Notes under the pieces: generated by a model
Database searches by the model: none
Seen by the model: the letters and a program-made list of their open reading frames with translations, nothing else
Told to the model about the DNA's origin: nothing
Program-made: the position numbers and the translations under genes
Origin: Heliocybe sulcata
Lineage: Eukaryota > Basidiomycota > Agaricomycetes > Gloeophyllales > Gloeophyllaceae
Direction: 5' to 3'
NCBI GenBank assembly: GCA_004369045.1
Contig: ML213504.1
Coordinates: forward strand, 901,508-965,507
DNA: 64,000 bases
Part shown: positions 1 to 10,031 of the stretch, piece after piece
Numbering within the stretch: the stretch's first letter is position 1
How the letters are laid out: the number at the start of each line of letters is the position of its first letter

Positions 1-2077
1 AGCTGGAAACCAAAAGGTCAGTTGAATGAAGTACGATGAAGCGAGGTCTACGCACTTCCCGTCTAAATTCATGCACAGTCCATATTACGTTAGTCAATTA
101 TTACTTCCCAACTTGAAGCAACAATACCCACCCACTAAAACGTAATGAAACCATCAGTAACCGCGGAGTAATGAAAATAACTAGGACTTACTCATCAGCT
201 GCATCTTAAATGCGTCGCCGAGCAAGTCTATTGGATCATTGTTCAGTTGGCACGCATGTCGGACGGCCGGGTGGAACTCACCTCGCGCAGTCTTGTCGTC
301 CACCGCTCGCGTAATTGGCGCCAGAATCCAGATGCAGTCACATTTCTTCATGTACTCCTTCGCGATATTGTTGCGAGCGGCATTGGCATCAGCGACCCCG
401 GGCAAGTCGACCAGAATAGCGCCAGTCGAGAGCGCAGCCGAATTGCAGCGGACACGGACTTGGCGGATGAGAGGCCAGAAGGCGGCTTCGTCGCCGCCAT
501 CCTTTTCCTTTTCCCTCTTCTTGCTCGCGTCGCCCCTGAGCATGTCAAAAAAGCTTTGACCCTTGGACTTATCCTTCTTCTCCTCTTTATCCTTGGCCTT
601 GTCCTTCTTCTTCTTGTCACCCCGCTTCTGGTCCTTGGAGTCGATGTACTTGGAAATTTCTTTCCCGAAAGCTGTCGAATCTTTTGCGACGATATTCTTG
701 GTCGTACCCAAGATCCGAGCAATTTCTGCCGCGGACGGTGGTAAGTGAAAAATACATGAGTGAAGCCAGCAAAGGTACTCACTCGGATCGCGAGCAATGA
801 TCTGATCTACGGTCATGCGGATAAGGTCTTCTGCCTCGATCGATGGATAGACCGCGTGGACCTGGAATCAGTGAGCCATAATTCCGGGCTAGTTGTTTGT
901 ATATCTATATACCTTCTGCCATGCTACACCAGAATCACTTTTCAGGTCCTTCGTCCTCTTGAGATTGCCATCCTCGTCGACAAGGTCATCCAGCAAGACC
1001 GCCAGCTCTTGCTTCCACTCGGCTTCCGACAAGAAAGAGACGTCCGCGTTGACCGTCTTCTTGGGATGGTAGGCGATCTCGGTAACGACCGCGGTACATG
1101 CTGCGGGCATATTCAGTGCGATGTCCGACGATGGCTCAAAACTGGGCAAACCACTTACCTCTCATTCCGCTAGTCGGAACAATGTTGTCTGTAAGGGAGG
1201 GGTTCGGATCAGGGAGAATAACATCACGGGTCACTAGCGCATACCGTCAAGGATAGCATTCAAGATAGACGACTTCCCAGCACCAGTCGCTGCGGATGCC
1301 GTCAGAGCTGTTATATTTGGAGGTAGCAAGACATACCTCCACAAATGGCGATCATGGTAGTCGGAGAGCCTTGGCTCTCAAGACTAGCATCATACATGTA
1401 AGTCTCATGCGCATACAACGAGGCAATAATACGTACCTTTCTATCTCACGAAGCCATACCTCTTTCCGCAACTTGCTGCCCAACTCAATCTTGTCGATAC
1501 TGGCTTTCATAGCCTTGACCATTTTAGTACCTTCACTGAGCGCGGTCTCGGGCGAGTAGGGGATATCGTCGGAGGCTTCATAGACCTTGTAGCCGGTACG
1601 AGGGGCAGATTGCGCTTGTGGAACATCATCGCCCTCATGGAGTGGAACAGGCACGTCTTCGCCTTCATCCTTCTTCGGTGCCGAGGCGCTACTAGACGCG
1701 TCGTTGGATGGTCCTGCTTCTGCTGCGAGGTAGCCGGGTAGAGGAAGTCCTCTATCCAAGAACTGAGTGGCAATCAGTCTCACCCGATAAATAGTATGAA
1801 GCCAAACGGAGTTAACTCACGACGCGTGCAGCATCTATGGGCTCGGGCTTGATGTTATCCTTCGTGTCTTTCTGCAAGGCGTCAATAGAGTTTGTCGGAG
1901 ATAAAGGCTTGATCTTGAGTTCTGTAGGCTCGCGTTTAATGGAAGGCGCCGTAGACGACTGCCAGACGCGTCAAGAAGCGCGCTATTAAAGGAGTTGCCC
2001 ATTGTGCTTACTGATGCCGCGTTGCCCATTGTTCTTCGCGAGGCCGTGCCCGCAGCGATGTTCTCCTTATAGTCCAT
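1..2077 (-). CDS. SLIP-GC-like large GTPase (dynamin-type P-loop), 3' part beyond left edge
   Basis: The first ATG is at 2077-2075. A Ser/Lys-rich leader is followed by a spliced P-loop GATGAGKSS (about 1245-1310). Next come a G2-like ACTAVVTEI segment (about 1110) and a G3 motif VDLPGV (about 405). The G3 region is followed by a stretch resembling the SLIP-GC (nuclear GTPase) family of dynamin-related proteins. Between G2 and G3 lies a very lysine-rich insert (KKKKDKAKDKEEKKDK, about 580-650). Known family members bind GTP and are described as nuclear; the role of this fungal copy is not known. The coding frame is interrupted by short introns (for example a donor at 194-193, GTAAGT). A good branch point and acceptor sit at positions 20-3, so the next exon starts at about position 2 and the gene continues off the left end. 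I am confident of the GTPase class but less so of the individual exon ends. Confidence 0.8.
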
Positions 2078-2321
2078 CACGCACTGGGTGGCGAAGAGCC
2101 TAATTGATTAAGGCTGACGCGAGTGGGAAAGGAAGTGTGAAGAACAGAGGGGCGCCCGGAATGAGCGCGATTTGTTACAGAGGGACAAATAAGACCACAT
2201 AACGCGTTCTAATTAGCGCGTAGTCATGAACGCGGTACCGGACCACGTGCATGACATTCCCACATTATGCCACATGGCCTACTGTGGCTGTGGCTGCTCA
2301 GGCATCTCTTTGCTGGACTCT

Positions 2322-3110
2322 ATGGCCAAAAAACGAAAGGCCAACCTGACTACCAAACTGCCTGAACAGAAGTTAGATATCTCCGAAGAGGAGCAATGGC
2401 GCATAATCAATCAGTCAGGTATACTGCGCAAGATTGACGCGAAGACAGACTCGTCTATACCGGCGGGCGTAGAAGAGGAGGACGAGGACGGTGTATCGCT
2501 AGGCGAAGAGATATTTAACGCTCTTGTCTACATTACGCCCTGCTCGTTTCTTCTTCTCATGATGGAAATGTACGTTGCAACGAGTACTTGTCGCAATTGG
2601 AAGTCTGACGTGCGAGAAGACTGATACACTATCAATACGGCAAACGTCCGTCGTTCGACCAGCTAGTGAACCGCATGGTCTCCGGCGTCCCAAGTATGCA
2701 GAATTCTTGTCCTTTATTGTATCTCCACTGATACCCTGTAGTATTGTCCATCTTCGTATTCTATTGTACGAGTTGACCTTTGCCGACTTGGTTCGAATCT
2801 AACCAATAGCCACAGCGATACGCTACAAACAGCACCGGCGAACGCAGTTCATCCTCTTCCTGATGTCATTAGCTTCCGGAATTAGACTGATCTGGCTTGT
2901 CAACCGAGGGAATTGGCTTACAAACATGCGGCAGGTGAGTAGAAGCTCTCCTCGGCGTCCCTGATATGTTGACCTCTCTGCTTCCAGTGTCCACCTCTCG
3001 CCACTGCATGGATCTATACCATTGTTCAGCTCGACTTAGGGCCCGCTGTCCTGAGTTTGGGTATTGTCTTCAGCTGGGTCTGGTGGGCGGGTATGAAGCT
3101 AAACTACTGA
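2322..3110 (+). CDS. DUF7719-type small multi-pass membrane protein
   Basis: Five exons give one frame: 2322-2569, 2620-2693, 2742-2765, 2810 to about 2934, and a last exon ending at the stop 3108-3110. The protein has a basic start (MAKKRKANLTTK), an acidic stretch, and then conserved hydrophobic helices (EEIFNALVYITPCSFLLLM, ILIHYQYGKRPSF, and a C-terminal helix ending SWVWWAGMKLNY). I recognise this as the fungal DUF7719 family, whose function is unknown; an endoplasmic reticulum or other endomembrane location is only a guess from the helices. The ATG at 2226 is in the same frame and could be used instead, but the 2322 start fits the family better. The 5' end faces the divergent GTPase gene. 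Confidence 0.75.
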
Positions 3111-3441
3111 GACCGGGCCACAGTGGACAACGTGATATGTTTTAGGACCTGTATCCCTATAAACTACAACCTATAATACACTACATTTATGCATGCAAAA
3201 GACAATGAATCCATTTAAGCTGTCTCCTGCGTATGAACGATGCATTTGATGCATCTTATGAAAGCTTGATCTGCCTTGCGTGAACAGCCAACGGGGTGGT
3301 GCGCAAGACAGCAATCATAACAGAGAGCAGGACTGATGTCCATATACGCCCGATAATACGCCACAACACGGGTAGCGACCTTATACCCGAGCAGCACCTT
3401 ATACGGGCGAGAAGAAATAGAGGTAGGTATTGTCACGCATA
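3111..3441. other. Intergenic spacer between convergent genes
   Basis: This is the shared 3' side of the DUF7719 gene (plus) and the conserved hypothetical (minus). I see no coding or RNA signal in it. Confidence 0.5.
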
Positions 3442-4957
3442 TCAGACCCCTGGCCCTTCGTCAAATTCCTCTTTCAGGACCTCCACTTTGCGCTGAGGCA
3501 AGAGAGTTAGCACGAGTCATTTCTCGATAACTCCAATCTTACCCTATAAGTAGTGGCACGACTCTCCAGGACTGCTCTCAAGACTCGAATTTGCCACCTC
3601 AGCCTTTTGGAAGCGGTTCTCTGGATCACACCACTGTTGTCATCTATTCGCTGGCAGAATGCTTTATAGACTCGATCGTCTCGGGCGAAGTACCAGACCT
3701 TAGAGACGATTGACTCTGAGTCAGCGAGATACAAGAGCGGACGAGAGAGCGCACCGGTATTGGTTCACCTTCAATGGAGTCCAGGACTATCGACCACGCG
3801 CCCATCATAAGCAGATCGACAGTAGCATTCGCCACACTGGAGACCGACTATTAGAATGGAGGTGGAGGTGAACTCGCACGACTCACTAGTCCTCGAGAGC
3901 AGCTATCGCCTCAGCTTTTCCCAGTTCCCTTGTCGCAAAGTTCCTCACGGCAGATTCAGCTGTACTCACAGGCTTCTCTGCAGTGCCGGCCCGTAGTGCA
4001 GTCGCCACGGAAGATACTTGTGAATACACCCATCTGTCTCCTTCACTCATGACCAGGGTCTGGAGGAAGGAGGCGATTAAGTCGGTATACGACGCTTGAA
4101 GACCGTAATCAATAGCCAGTTTGAGATTCGTGCCTAGGTAATATGAGATTCAGATCCTCCGTCTTGCAACGAAAGCAAAATCACACACGCAGCGCTTTCA
4201 GGAGAGTCTTGGTAGCCGGCTCGGAGAAATCGTCGTCTGATAAATGGTTGATCCATCGAGAGAACGCTCCGAGTAGAATGATCTGGACGTCCTGATGTGA
4301 TCGTCCTATCCGCATCGCGTGGACCAGAGGTGTGGAGTTGCCGTGTTTCCTAAGGAGCAACTAATCAAAGGCTCAGTTGTTCGTGGACTTCCGAAGAAGG
4401 TCGATAGGTCTTACATGAAATGCACGATCCCGTACTTCCATGAGGAAAACAATGTCTTTCTTCTCGATTGCACGATACACCTCGAATGGCTACAGTAGAA
4501 TACGATTAAACGATGGCGCGGCACACGCATCAATGCTAGTTCGTACCTCTGGATCTTTCCATGGCCCCTTCCAATTGGATGCGTTGTTCAGGACAGAAAC
4601 CCGTTTCTTCGTCGGTGACCCAGAAGATGAAGTCGATGCTGCGCTACTCTTCCTAGTTCGCGGAGAGCCCGCCTTGTCCGATGACTCTTCCGGCTGAGAT
4701 TCTGTAGGGCTGGGACTCCTGCGGAGCTGTTTGATAATAGCATAGGGTGCTTCTCGTTCCGCGTCTCTCTGTATGAATGCTTCACTGACGTCAACGACGC
4801 GGAGGTAAGGTGAAGCGGGAAACGAACCTGAAGACGGCAGACGGGCTAGCAGACAAGGGTCACTTCCAAGCTTGGCTTTGGAAACCGGGTCAGAGTCAGC
4901 TGGCTGGTCTAACTGACGAAGAAGATGCGAGAGTATTGGAGCAAAGTTCATGGCCAT
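3442..4957 (-). CDS. Conserved basidiomycete hypothetical, helical and possibly ankyrin-like
   Basis: The frame runs from ATG 4957 through several short introns to a stop at 3442-3444. The N-terminal half is Ser/Lys-rich (KAGSPRTRKSSAAS). It is followed by PFEVYRAIEKKDIVFLMEV and HGNSTPLVHAMRIGRSHQDV, which resemble helix pairs of ankyrin-type repeats. The rest is helical, and the C-terminus is charged and probably coiled-coil (KVEVLKEEFDEGPGV). Splice sites at 4548/4490, 4414/4361 and 3716/3770 keep the frame open, which supports a real gene. I do not recognise the family and assign no function. It is divergent from the Dicer gene, with about 310 bp between the start codons. Confidence 0.65.
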
Positions 4958-5267
4958 TTGGCGCAGGTAATGTCGGAGACTTCAAGGGGGACAAAGGAGA
5001 CAACGCCACAGCAGGCAGAGCTGAAAGCGTACAGAGTTCTTGTTAGCACTGCGCATCTTCGCAACTGAGCAGTGCCCACAGACGAGTACGATTGCCGGTG
5101 CACTCGAGCTGACTCAAGCTGGTTTAAGGCACACAGTCAGATCCAAAATCGGGAACATAGCAAACACCGCCACAACCCTCAAGTTCGAAAGTCGAAAGCT
5201 TAAAGCAGTGAAAGCCCCCATCGTTCTTGACTCCGCCCACCATCTCGCAACATATCTCATACTGACC
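4958..5267. promoter_or_regulatory. Short bidirectional promoter region (hypothetical / Dicer)
   Basis: These 310 bp separate the two divergent start codons at 4957 and 5268. An in-frame extension of the Dicer ORF reaches back to 5040 but has no conserved sequence. I see no TATA box. The stretch is too short to encode a helicase domain. Confidence 0.45.
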
Positions 5268-8200
5268 ATGCTCAGCGTATGGAAGAAGGCTTGGAAAAAG
5301 TCGAAGGCTGCAGCGACGACGGATGTTCAGGACAACCAGGATCCCCAGCCAAGTGGAACTAGCTGGCCAGGTGCTCCCGTTGACGCTACTCCAGCGGTTC
5401 CACCTGATAACGGCGAGGGATGTATGCAAACTGAAGCTGCTCTACCGAGACACCAAAGGAGGAAGCTGGATCAGCTCGAGGACGCGTCTTCTGCTACCCC
5501 CGAGCGTCCTCTCAAAAGGCGTAAGGAAGCAGAAGGCCCCGAGTCCGAGCCTGCAACCAGCTTGCTTCAGCCGCGGGTCTCTGCTGATGTGATTCTTCCA
5601 AAGGAGATGGTCATTCTCTACGAGTTCTCCCCGCCATCAGAAGAAGCTACTCTCCTGAAGCGCGTACTGGCAATACAGCCCCCGGTCGCATCTTTGAGTT
5701 CTTGGCCTCGGTATGCCCGTGATATTCTACACGCTGCTGGATCTTGTGGCTCCGACTTGGTTTGGCGGTATGCGTGTGCAGATGAGATTGCCCAAGACTC
5801 CCTTGGACAGTCTCATCTTGCTGCACGACCTATTGATGACGAGCTATTTCGTCAGATTGTCCGTGACTGGCACTACACCAGCCCTAATCTAGACGCACTT
5901 TCTTCCGAGAAGAATGTGTCCGACAAGTTCGCCAAACTAGTACAGATACTGAGAGCATTTGAAGCCCAAGGCACACAATTCCGTGTCATAGTCTTCGGTG
6001 TGTGAAAGGTCACATTGGTGATGGCAATGAACTAAAAAATGGACCAGTGCAGCACAGAATCACAGCCGCTGTGTTAGTCGACTTGATTCGCATGGTCAAG
6101 GACTTGTCGACCTTCATCCGTCCTCAAGCACTCATCAGCCATGATCAAGAAGAGCAGGTAAGCTTGCCAACATATTCTTCTCATGTCTAACTAATGTGCG
6201 TCTCGAGCAAAACATTATGCGCGACTTCGCCGAAGGGCGATACAATCTGCTCCTAGCCACAAAATCGATGGAAGACCTCGATATCCCCAAAGTGGACGTG
6301 GTAATCCGGTTCGTACAGTTGTATCTATGCTTTCTAACCAACGCTGACGTCCCTTCAGGTTTGACCTCTTCGAAAGTCAAGTCTCTTATGCATATTCTCG
6401 TGCATGCTTACGAGGCCCTGACCCCCATCTCATCCACTTGGTCGAAAACGGAAATGACGTCCATCGCCGTATACTATCCGACGTTTCTCCCTCCACAATT
6501 GCCGTCAAAACATGGATGTTTCGTATGTCAAGTCAAGAAGGCGCCATTCCACCATCCACCATCCACGAGAGTACCGATCCTTATCGGTCGGACGACGAGG
6601 ACGCGGGTTGTATGGGACCATGCATAACCGATCCGTGTACGAGCGGTAGAATCTATCACCGTGATGCAACGGCCGTCTTGCTCCGCTTCCTCGCGAGATC
6701 CGGGTCCTCTCACGAAGAGAATAGTACTATTTTCCACTATCGGCGAATGGACGGGTCGGAGAGCAACAAAGCAGAATACGTCTGTTCGATACGTCTTCCT
6801 GGGGTCAAGTCGCACGTTGTTACTGGTGACCCCTGTGATTCCATTGCACATGCTCGTCGGTTAGCGTGTTACAACGCCTGTCGGGAACTCGGCGAGCTCG
6901 GCTCCCTGGATTACCGCATTCTCCCCAGGCCGACACATGTTGTTCGTATAGATGATCCCGAGCATCAACGCCTGATGAACCACCAGCAGAATGCGCATAA
7001 CGGAACTCGAAAATATCCCCGCAAGTGCCCTGACTTCTGGTTGAACTCTAGGTCCGTTGGATGGGATCATGTATATCCCACCGTCATCTCCGTGCGCGGA
7101 GACGAAGCGTCCAGCCATGGGCCTATAGTGATGTTGACGCGGCTGCCTCTACCCTCTCTTTCATCTACCAAGCTCTTCTACATTGGCGTCCCTATAGCTG
7201 TCCAATTCTCTCGTGCAGCTCAGCTTACTCTCGATGGGGAGAAGCTCCGGCAAGCGCATGCCTACACCATGAGGGTGTGCAAAGGTATCATGAATAGGGC
7301 CATGGACTACCCGCTCCAGAACATGCCTTACTTGCTGCTTCCTCTGGACCGAAAATGGCTTGAAGCGCATTCAAGCCCGGCCGACAGCATAGTACTTCCA
7401 AGTGTAGAGGATGATATCCCTTGGAATCAAGTAGAGCTCGCAGTCGAGAAGGCAGTCATCCCTTTGCGCTATGGGAGCGTCCAAGAGGTCGAGCAGGACG
7501 TGGAGGACGCCGTCATCCAAGACAGATGGGTAGAGTTTACCAGGAGGTATGAGGTGAACACGGTCAGAGGCGACCTGTCGCCACTGAGTGCACCGACTGA
7601 CAGTCCTGTGAATGCTTTCCCTAGTTGTCTCTGTTTCCAGTCTGACGAGTTCCGCCATAGCGCGAAGCGGGATACCCAACCTTCGTGGCTTACTGCGAAG
7701 CGCGACGTAAGGGTTTTGACAGGTTGAAGAGCCACGAACAACCCTTGATCGAGATCAAACGATTGTCTCCCCTCCTTAACCGCCTGAATCCCTCAACACG
7801 ACCGTGGACCGAATCAACCAAGGCAACTGCCAAATGTAAGCCCTGTCCACAACACATCACAACGTTGCTGACCGTCGTGAGACAGATCTCATTCCGGAGC
7901 TATGTGTCAAACATACTATCCCTGCCAGGTCAGTGCGGATATCACAGCACCCAGGTAACGCCTGATGGTAATTCTATTCTAGTACATTCCGGACAGCACT
8001 TCTCTTACCATCAATCACGCGAAGAATCAATGACATGCTTCTCGTCAAAGAACTCAACGCGAAGCTGTTCGATCACTGCCTCCGCGAAGACTTGCTGCAT
8101 ACAGCGATCACCGCACCTTCTGCTGGGTTTGAGTTTGACTACGAACGTCTAGAGCTGTTAGGTCAGATTTACGTCAATTGCTCGACCTCGAATGATCTTG

Positions 8201-10031
8201 CTGACATTTCCAACAAAGGGGATGCCTATCTCAAATACCTGTCTTCGGTTTATCTCTTTGTGACAAATCCGCAGAAACACGAAGGGGCTCTCCATCACGC
8301 GCGGCAGCGAATCATTAGTAACAAGTCCTTATTGGAATACGCAGACAGCGCTGGGCTGCCTCCGTTCATTCAATCAAAACCCTTTGTGGCTAAATTGTGG
8401 CAGCCTCTCGATGGAGCCATCCACTCGGACAACACCAGGCCGGGCCCCAGCACTGTCGAGCAGCAGGGAGCTGCAAACCCTCCTAGCGCCGCCGACCGAC
8501 CTATCTCACCTGCCGAGCCGGAAACCGTGCCGGCGAAGTCCAAAAGGTCAAAGCGGAAACGGCAGCTCGATGAACAGGGCATTCAATGGTTGGGAGACAA
8601 AGCAAGTATATTCATCGCGTCATCTCCTTTCACAGCTCACTTGATACATAGGCCGTAGCAGACGTCGCGGAAGCGATAATCGGAGCCGGGTACATGACCG
8701 GCGGTCGCGAGGTAGCTCTGAAAGTCACCAAAGCGCTCAACATACCCGTTCCGCGTATCGACCGGTGGGAGGACTTTGGTAGGAAGCCGCTGGCCGTCGC
8801 GCCGGAAACGGTCTCGAAATTGAAACCAGGTCGCATCGACGCTGTCGAGCGTATCATCGGGCATAAATTCCAGCGCCCCCAGTTTCTTGCTCAAGCCTTG
8901 GTATCTAGTTCACCATGCGCAAATGCTTTTATACTTATTGACTGGTGCTAGACGCATACATCCGTGCAAGGCTACGACATGACCTCCTACGAACGTCTAG
9001 AGTTCCTCGGGGACGCGATTCTTGACTTCAGTAGGTCATGTCCAGGTTGCATGGTGGATCAGGCTTACAATCATTGCTAGTGGTAATCCGTCATCTGTAT
9101 TTCAGGGAAACACAACTGTCGCCTGGAGGATTGACACTATTGAAAGTAGGCTATATCACTATGCCAGACCCTTCTTCCTATTGAACTCTGACCTCCTTAA
9201 TTTGCCAGGGTGCCATGGTTTCCAACTCGGCTCTTGCTGCCCTATGTGTTTGGTCTGGTCTCCATCGACATCTTCTTTTCGAGTCGAAAGAGCTTGCGAG
9301 CAGCATCCAGACGTACGAAGCGCAGCTGAAAGTGCGACAGGATACGGAGTACGCGGAGGCGGATCTGGAGGGTCGTTCTCCAGGGCAATATTGGTTGGAC
9401 ATCGAGCCTCCAAAGGTCAGGGCGTTGCCTTTCGAGTCATTGCCAGTTCGTACTAATCCGAGTCATTCAGGCTCTGTCAGACGTCGTTGAGTCGATCATC
9501 GGGGCCATATACATCTCCGACAATTTCTCGCCTGTCGGATCTGAAGCATTTTTTGTCAAGGTCCTCAGGCCATTTTACGACAAGCACATTACCCTGAAGA
9601 CGTTGTCGCATCATCCAACGAAAACTCTGTTCGAGCTGTTCCAAGCTGAGGGCTGCCACGAGTTCGAGATGGTAAAGCAGCAGGTACAACCAGATGCTTC
9701 CGAAGAGATAGTTGAAGGCAGACAACAGATGACGCGTTGCGAAGGTTGGTGTCTCACTGATGCCGACATGACTCTTCATTCTAATTTCCGACTATCAGTC
9801 GTTGTGCATGACACCATCTTGGCGGCTGCGGCATCAACCTCCAGCTTCAGTGCATCGAGGAGGGCGTCTTTCTGCGCACTAGACGCTCTTGAAGGTGATC
9901 CAGACTTCATGAGACGGACTTGCAACTGCCGGTTGCAGTCACAAGTTCGCCATGCTGTGAAGAAGGCGCTGAAGGATATATGGCGGGACGAGGGTGATGA
10001 CGAGGTGGTGGAGGCAGTGCTAGCAGGATGA
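5268..10031 (+). CDS. DCL: Dicer-like ribonuclease III lacking helicase lobe 1
   Basis: Fourteen exons keep one frame of 4,074 nt (1,357 residues): 5268-5997, 6048-6157, 6208-6308, 6359-7607, 7661-7835, 7886-7928, 7983-8161, 8219-8605, 8659-8900, 8952-9030, 9081-9145, 9209-9415, 9471-9744 and 9799-10031. Domain order: basic low-complexity leader (1-110), helicase lobe 2 (about 235-340), Dicer dimerisation domain (about 410-500), platform/PAZ-like region (about 540-780), RNase IIIa (ERLELLGDA near 858 and DVAEAIIGA near 993, with a long Pro/Lys-rich insert between), RNase IIIb (ERLEFLGDA near 1088 and DVVESIIGA near 1193), and a weak C-terminal dsRNA-binding-like region. Both RNase III halves keep the Glu/Asp catalytic set, so dsRNA cleavage into small RNAs is expected. 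Walker A and DECH motifs are absent. The helicase motif VI region reads YSRACLRG, without a clear QxxGRxxR. The exon 8/9 junction is the least certain. Confidence 0.93.

Follow-up and report, generated by a model that had tools for sequence, protein, structure and literature searches.

A Dicer of Heliocybe sulcata that lacks helicase lobe 1, in a genome with two helicase-complete Dicers

The stretch of DNA analysed here (the window; 64,000 nucleotides, G000:C2:901508-965507 in an assembly of 31.6 Mb and 51 contigs) carries at 5268-10031 on the plus strand a gene for a Dicer-like protein in which, by pattern scan and domain search, the ATPase is absent: the first lobe of the helicase is gone, and the second lacks the residues needed for ATP hydrolysis. 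The residues for cutting are present in both RNase III domains, and two helicase-complete Dicers, D7 (contig C7) and D8 (contig C28), are encoded elsewhere in the genome. By its domains the protein appears to be a Dicer of the published basidiomycete Ba2, or non-canonical C, type, and comparison with better-studied enzymes makes it probable that it cuts without ATP and distributively, beside the two complete Dicers. To what has been published on that class, the analysis adds the motif-level decay of lobe 2, a corrected splice site, and a genome context with two complete Dicers.

Gene model and splicing

The gene reads from an ATG at 5268 to a stop codon at 10031 in 14 exons (Table 1), whose junctions were set against homologous proteins with the frame kept. 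No internal stop interrupts this frame, and the other two frames contain 56 and 55. The 13 introns measure 50-63 nt when all are read as GT-AG. An automatic splice model misplaced several junctions, one of them turning an Asp of RNase IIIa into Asn, and was replaced by the homology-checked junctions. The initial annotation had proposed a 14-exon frame across the same interval; the open frame stands, and the one junction that required correction is intron 8, which fits better as GC-AG (8602-8651).

Three readings of intron 8 keep the frame: a GT donor joined to either of two tandem acceptors (8606-8658 or 8606-8661), or the GC-AG pair. In that order, the RNase IIIa match to PF00636 scores 61.1, 62.4 and 68.9 bits, the alignment to D7 scores 43.5, 41.5 and 59.5, and the alignment to D8 scores 38.5, 34.5 and 47.5. 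The GC-AG reading gives a product of 1357 aa containing KAVADVAEAIIGA and restores the spacing of the relatives, with KAVADVAEAIIG in the window protein, KTLADVVEALIG in Arabidopsis DCL1 and KVLADVIESLIG in the paralogue D7. Because the RNase IIIa spacing, the Pfam score and both paralogue alignments improve with it, intron 8 is likely GC-AG rather than GT-AG. The two GT-AG readings score more poorly and were set aside for the main product, though either may occur as an alternative splice form.

A tandem TAGCAG acceptor lies just 3' of the GC-AG intron (window 8602-8661). Splicing from the GT donor at 8606 to the second acceptor would put Asn in place of the catalytic Asp in RNase IIIa, and one of the two cutting sites would be killed.

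Table 1. Features of the Dicer-like gene, its predicted protein and the adjoining gene (window coordinates; slashes in the intron 8 entry mark the splice junctions)
Feature	Position	Strand	Basis or remark
Divergent neighbour, rough 7-exon model, bounding the 5' side	3442..4957	-	FBA (F-box-associated) 18.6 bits, below cut-off
Exons 1-7, Dicer-like gene	5268-5999, 6053-6157, 6208-6308, 6359-7607, 7661-7835, 7886-7928, 7983-8161	+	Frame, homology
Exons 8-14, Dicer-like gene	8219-8601, 8652-8900, 8952-9030, 9081-9145, 9209-9415, 9471-9744, 9799-10031	+	Frame, homology
Intron 8, likely GC-AG, 50 nt	8602-8651	+	AAA/GCAAGT ... ATAG/GCC
Basic low-complexity N-terminus with KRRK cluster, aa 1-110	5268..5597	+	Occupies the position of lobe 1
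Linker, aa 111-215, where a helicase insertion (Hel2i) would sit	5598..5912	+	Position
Degenerate helicase lobe 2 (Helicase_C), aa 216-365	5913..6515	+	Helicase_C, motifs V/VI
DUF283 / Dicer dimerisation domain, aa 416-504	6666..6932	+	PF03368 38.7 bits, cut-off 23.7
Recognisable but weakly scoring PAZ, aa 690-817	7488..8028	+	PF02170 19.3 bits, under the cut-off of 28.8; E 0.0011
RNase IIIa, with ERLELLGDA at aa 856, DVAEAIIGA at aa 993 and an insert of about 70 residues between	8065..8807	+	Pfam, pattern scan
RNase IIIb, with ERLEFLGDA at aa 1086 and DVVESIIGA at aa 1193	8826..9530	+	Pfam, pattern scan
Divergent dsRBD-like C-terminus, aa 1236-1313	9609..9896	+	PF24995 DSRM_2 24.5 bits, cut-off 27

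The helicase region

The initial annotation had described a protein with neither Walker A nor DECH, without lobe 1 and with decayed motifs in lobe 2, and each of these points is borne out. By pattern scan, the window protein contains none of Walker A, DECH/DEAH and QxxGRxxR; both paralogues score positive, carrying GSGKT, DEAH or DECH, and QSRGRAR. The sole loose match to a DExH/D pattern is DEGD at 1344, in the C-terminal tail. Pfam searches up to E 1 return no DEAD or ResIII domain (1356-aa version of the protein), and aa 1-244 have no Pfam match. No PDB match covers the linker at aa 111-215, the helicase-region matches beginning at aa 191-206, on the approach to lobe 2. An AlphaFold prediction of aa 100-244 alone, a piece of exon 1, reached a pLDDT of 37.7 and was unusable.

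Lobe 2 itself is recognised by Helicase_C at aa 220-323. The region of motif V, LLLATKSMEDLDIP at 6247-6288, is without the Gly of TxVAEEGLD, a segment that reads TSVAEEGLD in D8 and TAVAEEGID in D7. Motif VI, at 6393-6416, reads YSRACLRG and has lost the arginine of GR, versus QSRGRAR in both paralogues. The names and roles of motifs V and VI are those that we take them to have in helicases of this kind.

Search for the missing lobe

The upstream space is bounded and, as the initial annotation had argued, short: only 310 bases (4958-5267) separate the ATG of the Dicer-like gene from the model of the divergent neighbour, which starts at 4957. On the minus strand, a GTGKS resembling Walker A near 3.9 kb runs directly into a stop and was set aside as chance. 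Further out in this direction lies a fragment of a dynamin-family GTPase (window 181-867, minus strand; Dynamin_N 31.4 bits), whose gene probably reaches about 2100.

When the lobe 1 sequences of both paralogues were used as tblastn queries against the 64-kb window, only chance-level matches appeared, the best at E 2.8 and 0.84; the remaining parts of the paralogues match the window gene down to E 4.6e-13. Against the whole genome, at E up to 10, neither lobe 1 query has a match beyond its own gene and the other paralogue, and the two detect each other at E 1.8e-6 and 1.3e-4. Given this mutual detection, any lobe 1 of comparable divergence would have shown up. In the family search of the genome, none of the best 20 ResIII places listed falls on the contig of the window (C2).

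An artefact, whereby lobe 1 was dropped by the assembly or the model at 4.9-5.3 kb or sits in unseen upstream exons, is very improbable. A single assembly does lie behind the model, and the neighbouring gene model is rough; set against this, the window is free of N bases, lobe 1 sequence occurs on neither strand of the 64 kb, none is left unassigned in the genome, and a published class of Dicers looks alike (PMC12663654). Lobe 2 shows decay in its motifs as well, which is what a true loss of lobe 1 from the gene would lead one to expect.

The dicing part of the protein

Past the helicase region, the protein has what marks a Dicer: a tandem pair of RNase III domains, each with its full catalytic acids, and DUF283, the latter being detected in a six-frame scan as well. 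The sequences ERLExLGDA and DVxExIIGA, which the initial annotation had read in both RNase III domains, were recovered in each by pattern scan. All eight catalytic acids are kept, at the positions that we take to be catalytic in RNase III domains. PF00636 matches two stretches, which together score 134.8 bits.

The region assigned to PAZ can be aligned with both Arabidopsis DCL1 and human Dicer; its Pfam score is under the cut-off. Arabidopsis DCL1 is the closest relative of solved structure (E 2e-83). No dsRBD of PF00035 is matched at E up to 1, and no NCBIfam model matches across DUF283-PAZ. Among viral contigs, three stretches fit a pattern for relatives and none was confirmed.

Paralogues and genome context

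A full-length paralogue had been suggested as something to look for, and the genome holds two. The gene model of D7 has 3 exons and encodes 1505 aa (L007, 1540-6201), and that of D8 has 7 exons and encodes 1472 aa (L008, reverse complement, 1576-6321); these exon numbers differ strongly from the 14 of the window Dicer. In Pfam, both show DEAD, ResIII, Helicase_C, Dicer_dimer and two RNase III stretches, and PAZ goes unmatched in both up to E 1. The window protein is 28.9% identical to D8 over 502 residues and 23.5% identical to D7 over 1011, and because identity is only this high it is, on sequence comparison, a recent copy of neither.

Domain scores are uneven along the window protein. RNase III scores 134.8 bits versus 127.3 and 133.6 in the paralogues, Helicase_C 33.6 bits versus 46.7 and 57.2, and Dicer_dimer 38.7 bits versus 78.3 and 61.1. 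This is the pattern that relaxed constraint on the helicase with dicing kept would give; selection itself is a question for orthologues. It is unlikely that the gene is instead a decaying paralogue, one that lost its helicase first and whose RNase III domains are readable only through the recency of the decay. The Helicase_C and Dicer_dimer scores under those of both paralogues are what decay would produce, but the RNase III scores equal those of the working paralogues, no catalytic acid has been lost, not one of the 1357 codons is an internal stop when the alternative frames have dozens, and the same make-up recurs in 273 proteins of a fungal survey (PMC12663654).

The genome has at least three clear places and one weak place for the Piwi family (Argonaute-type) and at least six for RdRP. 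A PAZ match on contig C1 (1379884-1380033) has no Piwi beside it among the matches listed, and an extra RNase III match (G000:C3:1160706-1160882; 27.2 bits against a cut-off of 27) is possibly a non-Dicer RNase III. The genome also has 28 matches to DUF6533 (PF20151), a family presumably typical of Agaricomycetes, and the introns of the window gene are about 50 nt long.

A published class of helicase-reduced Dicers

The survey by Melet et al. (2025; PMC12663654) covered 1592 fungal proteomes and 2911 Dicers. Dicers that are helicase-free or have Helicase_C only are reported to fall mainly in the basidiomycete clade Ba2 and are described as "potentially lacking ATPase activity". The non-canonical C type comprises 273 mainly basidiomycete proteins, without helicase subdomains or dsRBD and with PAZ kept; types C and D occur together in 189 species, and the commonest number of Dicers in Basidiomycota is given as three.

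The window protein shares traits of this group, with Helicase_C alone left and no PF00035 dsRBD. It is like Ba2 and non-canonical C proteins also in having two RNase III domains, DUF283, no lobe 1 and a shorter N-terminus, and in sitting in a genome with further, helicase-complete Dicers. Its PAZ is probably of the canonical type that they have; one possible difference lies in its score, since the E of 0.0011, obtained against a library of 24736 models, is just past the survey threshold of 1e-3, which comes from other database sizes. The protein matches the already published helicase-reduced class, to which it is likened by domain make-up and not by tree position. With D7 and D8 being D-like (no PAZ and no dsRBD match) and the window Dicer C-like, the predicted set of three fits the C+D pattern of the survey. 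In the portions of the survey consulted, neither motif-level decay of lobe 2 nor an experiment on ATP need is described, and a literature search found no study of what a Ba2 Dicer does, which does not disprove that one exists.

Among mushrooms, Coprinopsis cinerea likewise has three Dicers with PAZ in one of them, DCL-3 (CC1G_00230; PMC6145500). At 1499 versus 1357 aa, DCL-3 is longer than the window protein, and the two are likened by PAZ and not by helicase make-up. Since Dicer-2 of Sanghuangporus joins PAZ and a DEXHc domain in one protein (PMC9769868), PAZ alone is no marker of helicase-less Dicers.

Functional analogues

By analogy, the best functional counterpart of the window Dicer is Dicer(O) of mouse oocytes, in which the DExD/H lobe (HEL1) is missing and the rest is kept (PMC9645528). 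In mouse stem cells, the engineered Dicer-deltaHEL1 is reported to raise the yield of siRNA from long dsRNA about tenfold, and RNAi is similar whether only HEL1 or both HEL1 and HEL2 are lost (PMC9645528). Both mouse forms and the window protein lack the DExD/H lobe and keep lobe 2, DUF283 and the two RNase III domains, together with PAZ, which in the window protein is weakly scoring. Dicer(O) is, however, produced as an alternative isoform, its lobe 2 motifs are intact and its Hel2i is clear, whereas in the window Dicer the gene itself has lost the lobe and what remains as lobe 2 has degenerated; the loss of lobe 1 in the two is presumably convergent rather than homologous.

A second analogue is Drosophila Dicer-1, which like the window protein has a degenerate helicase and which is ATP-independent (review, PMC10328071). 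It differs in that its loss is unrelated by descent and affects a domain that is degenerate, not a lobe that is missing. According to that review, no evidence points to true processivity in Dicers of this kind.

The genome context raises the prospect of a helicase supplied in trans, the window Dicer pairing with a complete Dicer or with a separate helicase in a complex that uses ATP. Two complete Dicers are at hand in the genome, DUF283 and a remnant of lobe 2 have been retained, and Dicer of C. elegans acts with a separate RIG-I-like helicase (PMC11095941). Such an arrangement is nonetheless doubtful, as mouse Dicers without HEL1 work alone (PMC9645528).

The initial annotation had drawn its parallel with Giardia and budding yeast, which have in common with the window protein dicing without a helicase. 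They are poor comparisons, because lobe 2, DUF283, a match to PAZ and a second RNase III domain are all retained in the window protein, whose build is nearer to that of mouse Dicer(O). Budding-yeast Dcr1 has one RNase III domain and no PAZ, whereas the window protein has two RNase III domains. In the Giardia Dicer, the whole base and the dsRBD are missing (PMC10328071).

Proposed mechanism and significance

On the analogy with mouse Dicer(O) and Drosophila Dicer-1, the window Dicer is most likely an ATP-independent, distributive enzyme that measures its product by PAZ. The PAZ/platform would grip the end of a dsRNA, both RNase III sites would cut at a fixed distance from it, and the enzyme would release after every cut, with no threading of long dsRNA. 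Loss of lobe 1 would also remove the flap that closes mouse Dicer, and therefore substrate could load directly. The residual lobe 2 and DUF283 may serve as a scaffold that binds RNA or a partner protein. Any ATP-driven, processive dicing would be left to the two complete Dicers, in what we infer to be a division of labour between active enzymes.

More tentatively, the window Dicer could be a gene-fixed counterpart of Dicer(O): basidiomycetes of its clade would independently have dropped lobe 1, made an ATP-free scaffold of the residual lobe 2 and DUF283, and arrived at a permanently open, PAZ-measuring Dicer that cuts distributively and is specialised for substrates, hairpins or short dsRNA, that the two ATP-competent Dicers leave. 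This is possible, though we hold it to be somewhat less likely than not to be the case. If true, ATP-driven and ATP-free Dicers would have come convergently to divide the work inside one cell. A natural Dicer without lobe 1, found with two complete Dicers in one genome, makes a good test case for the Dicer helicase, whose role in ATP use, processivity and substrate choice may be tested here without engineered truncations.
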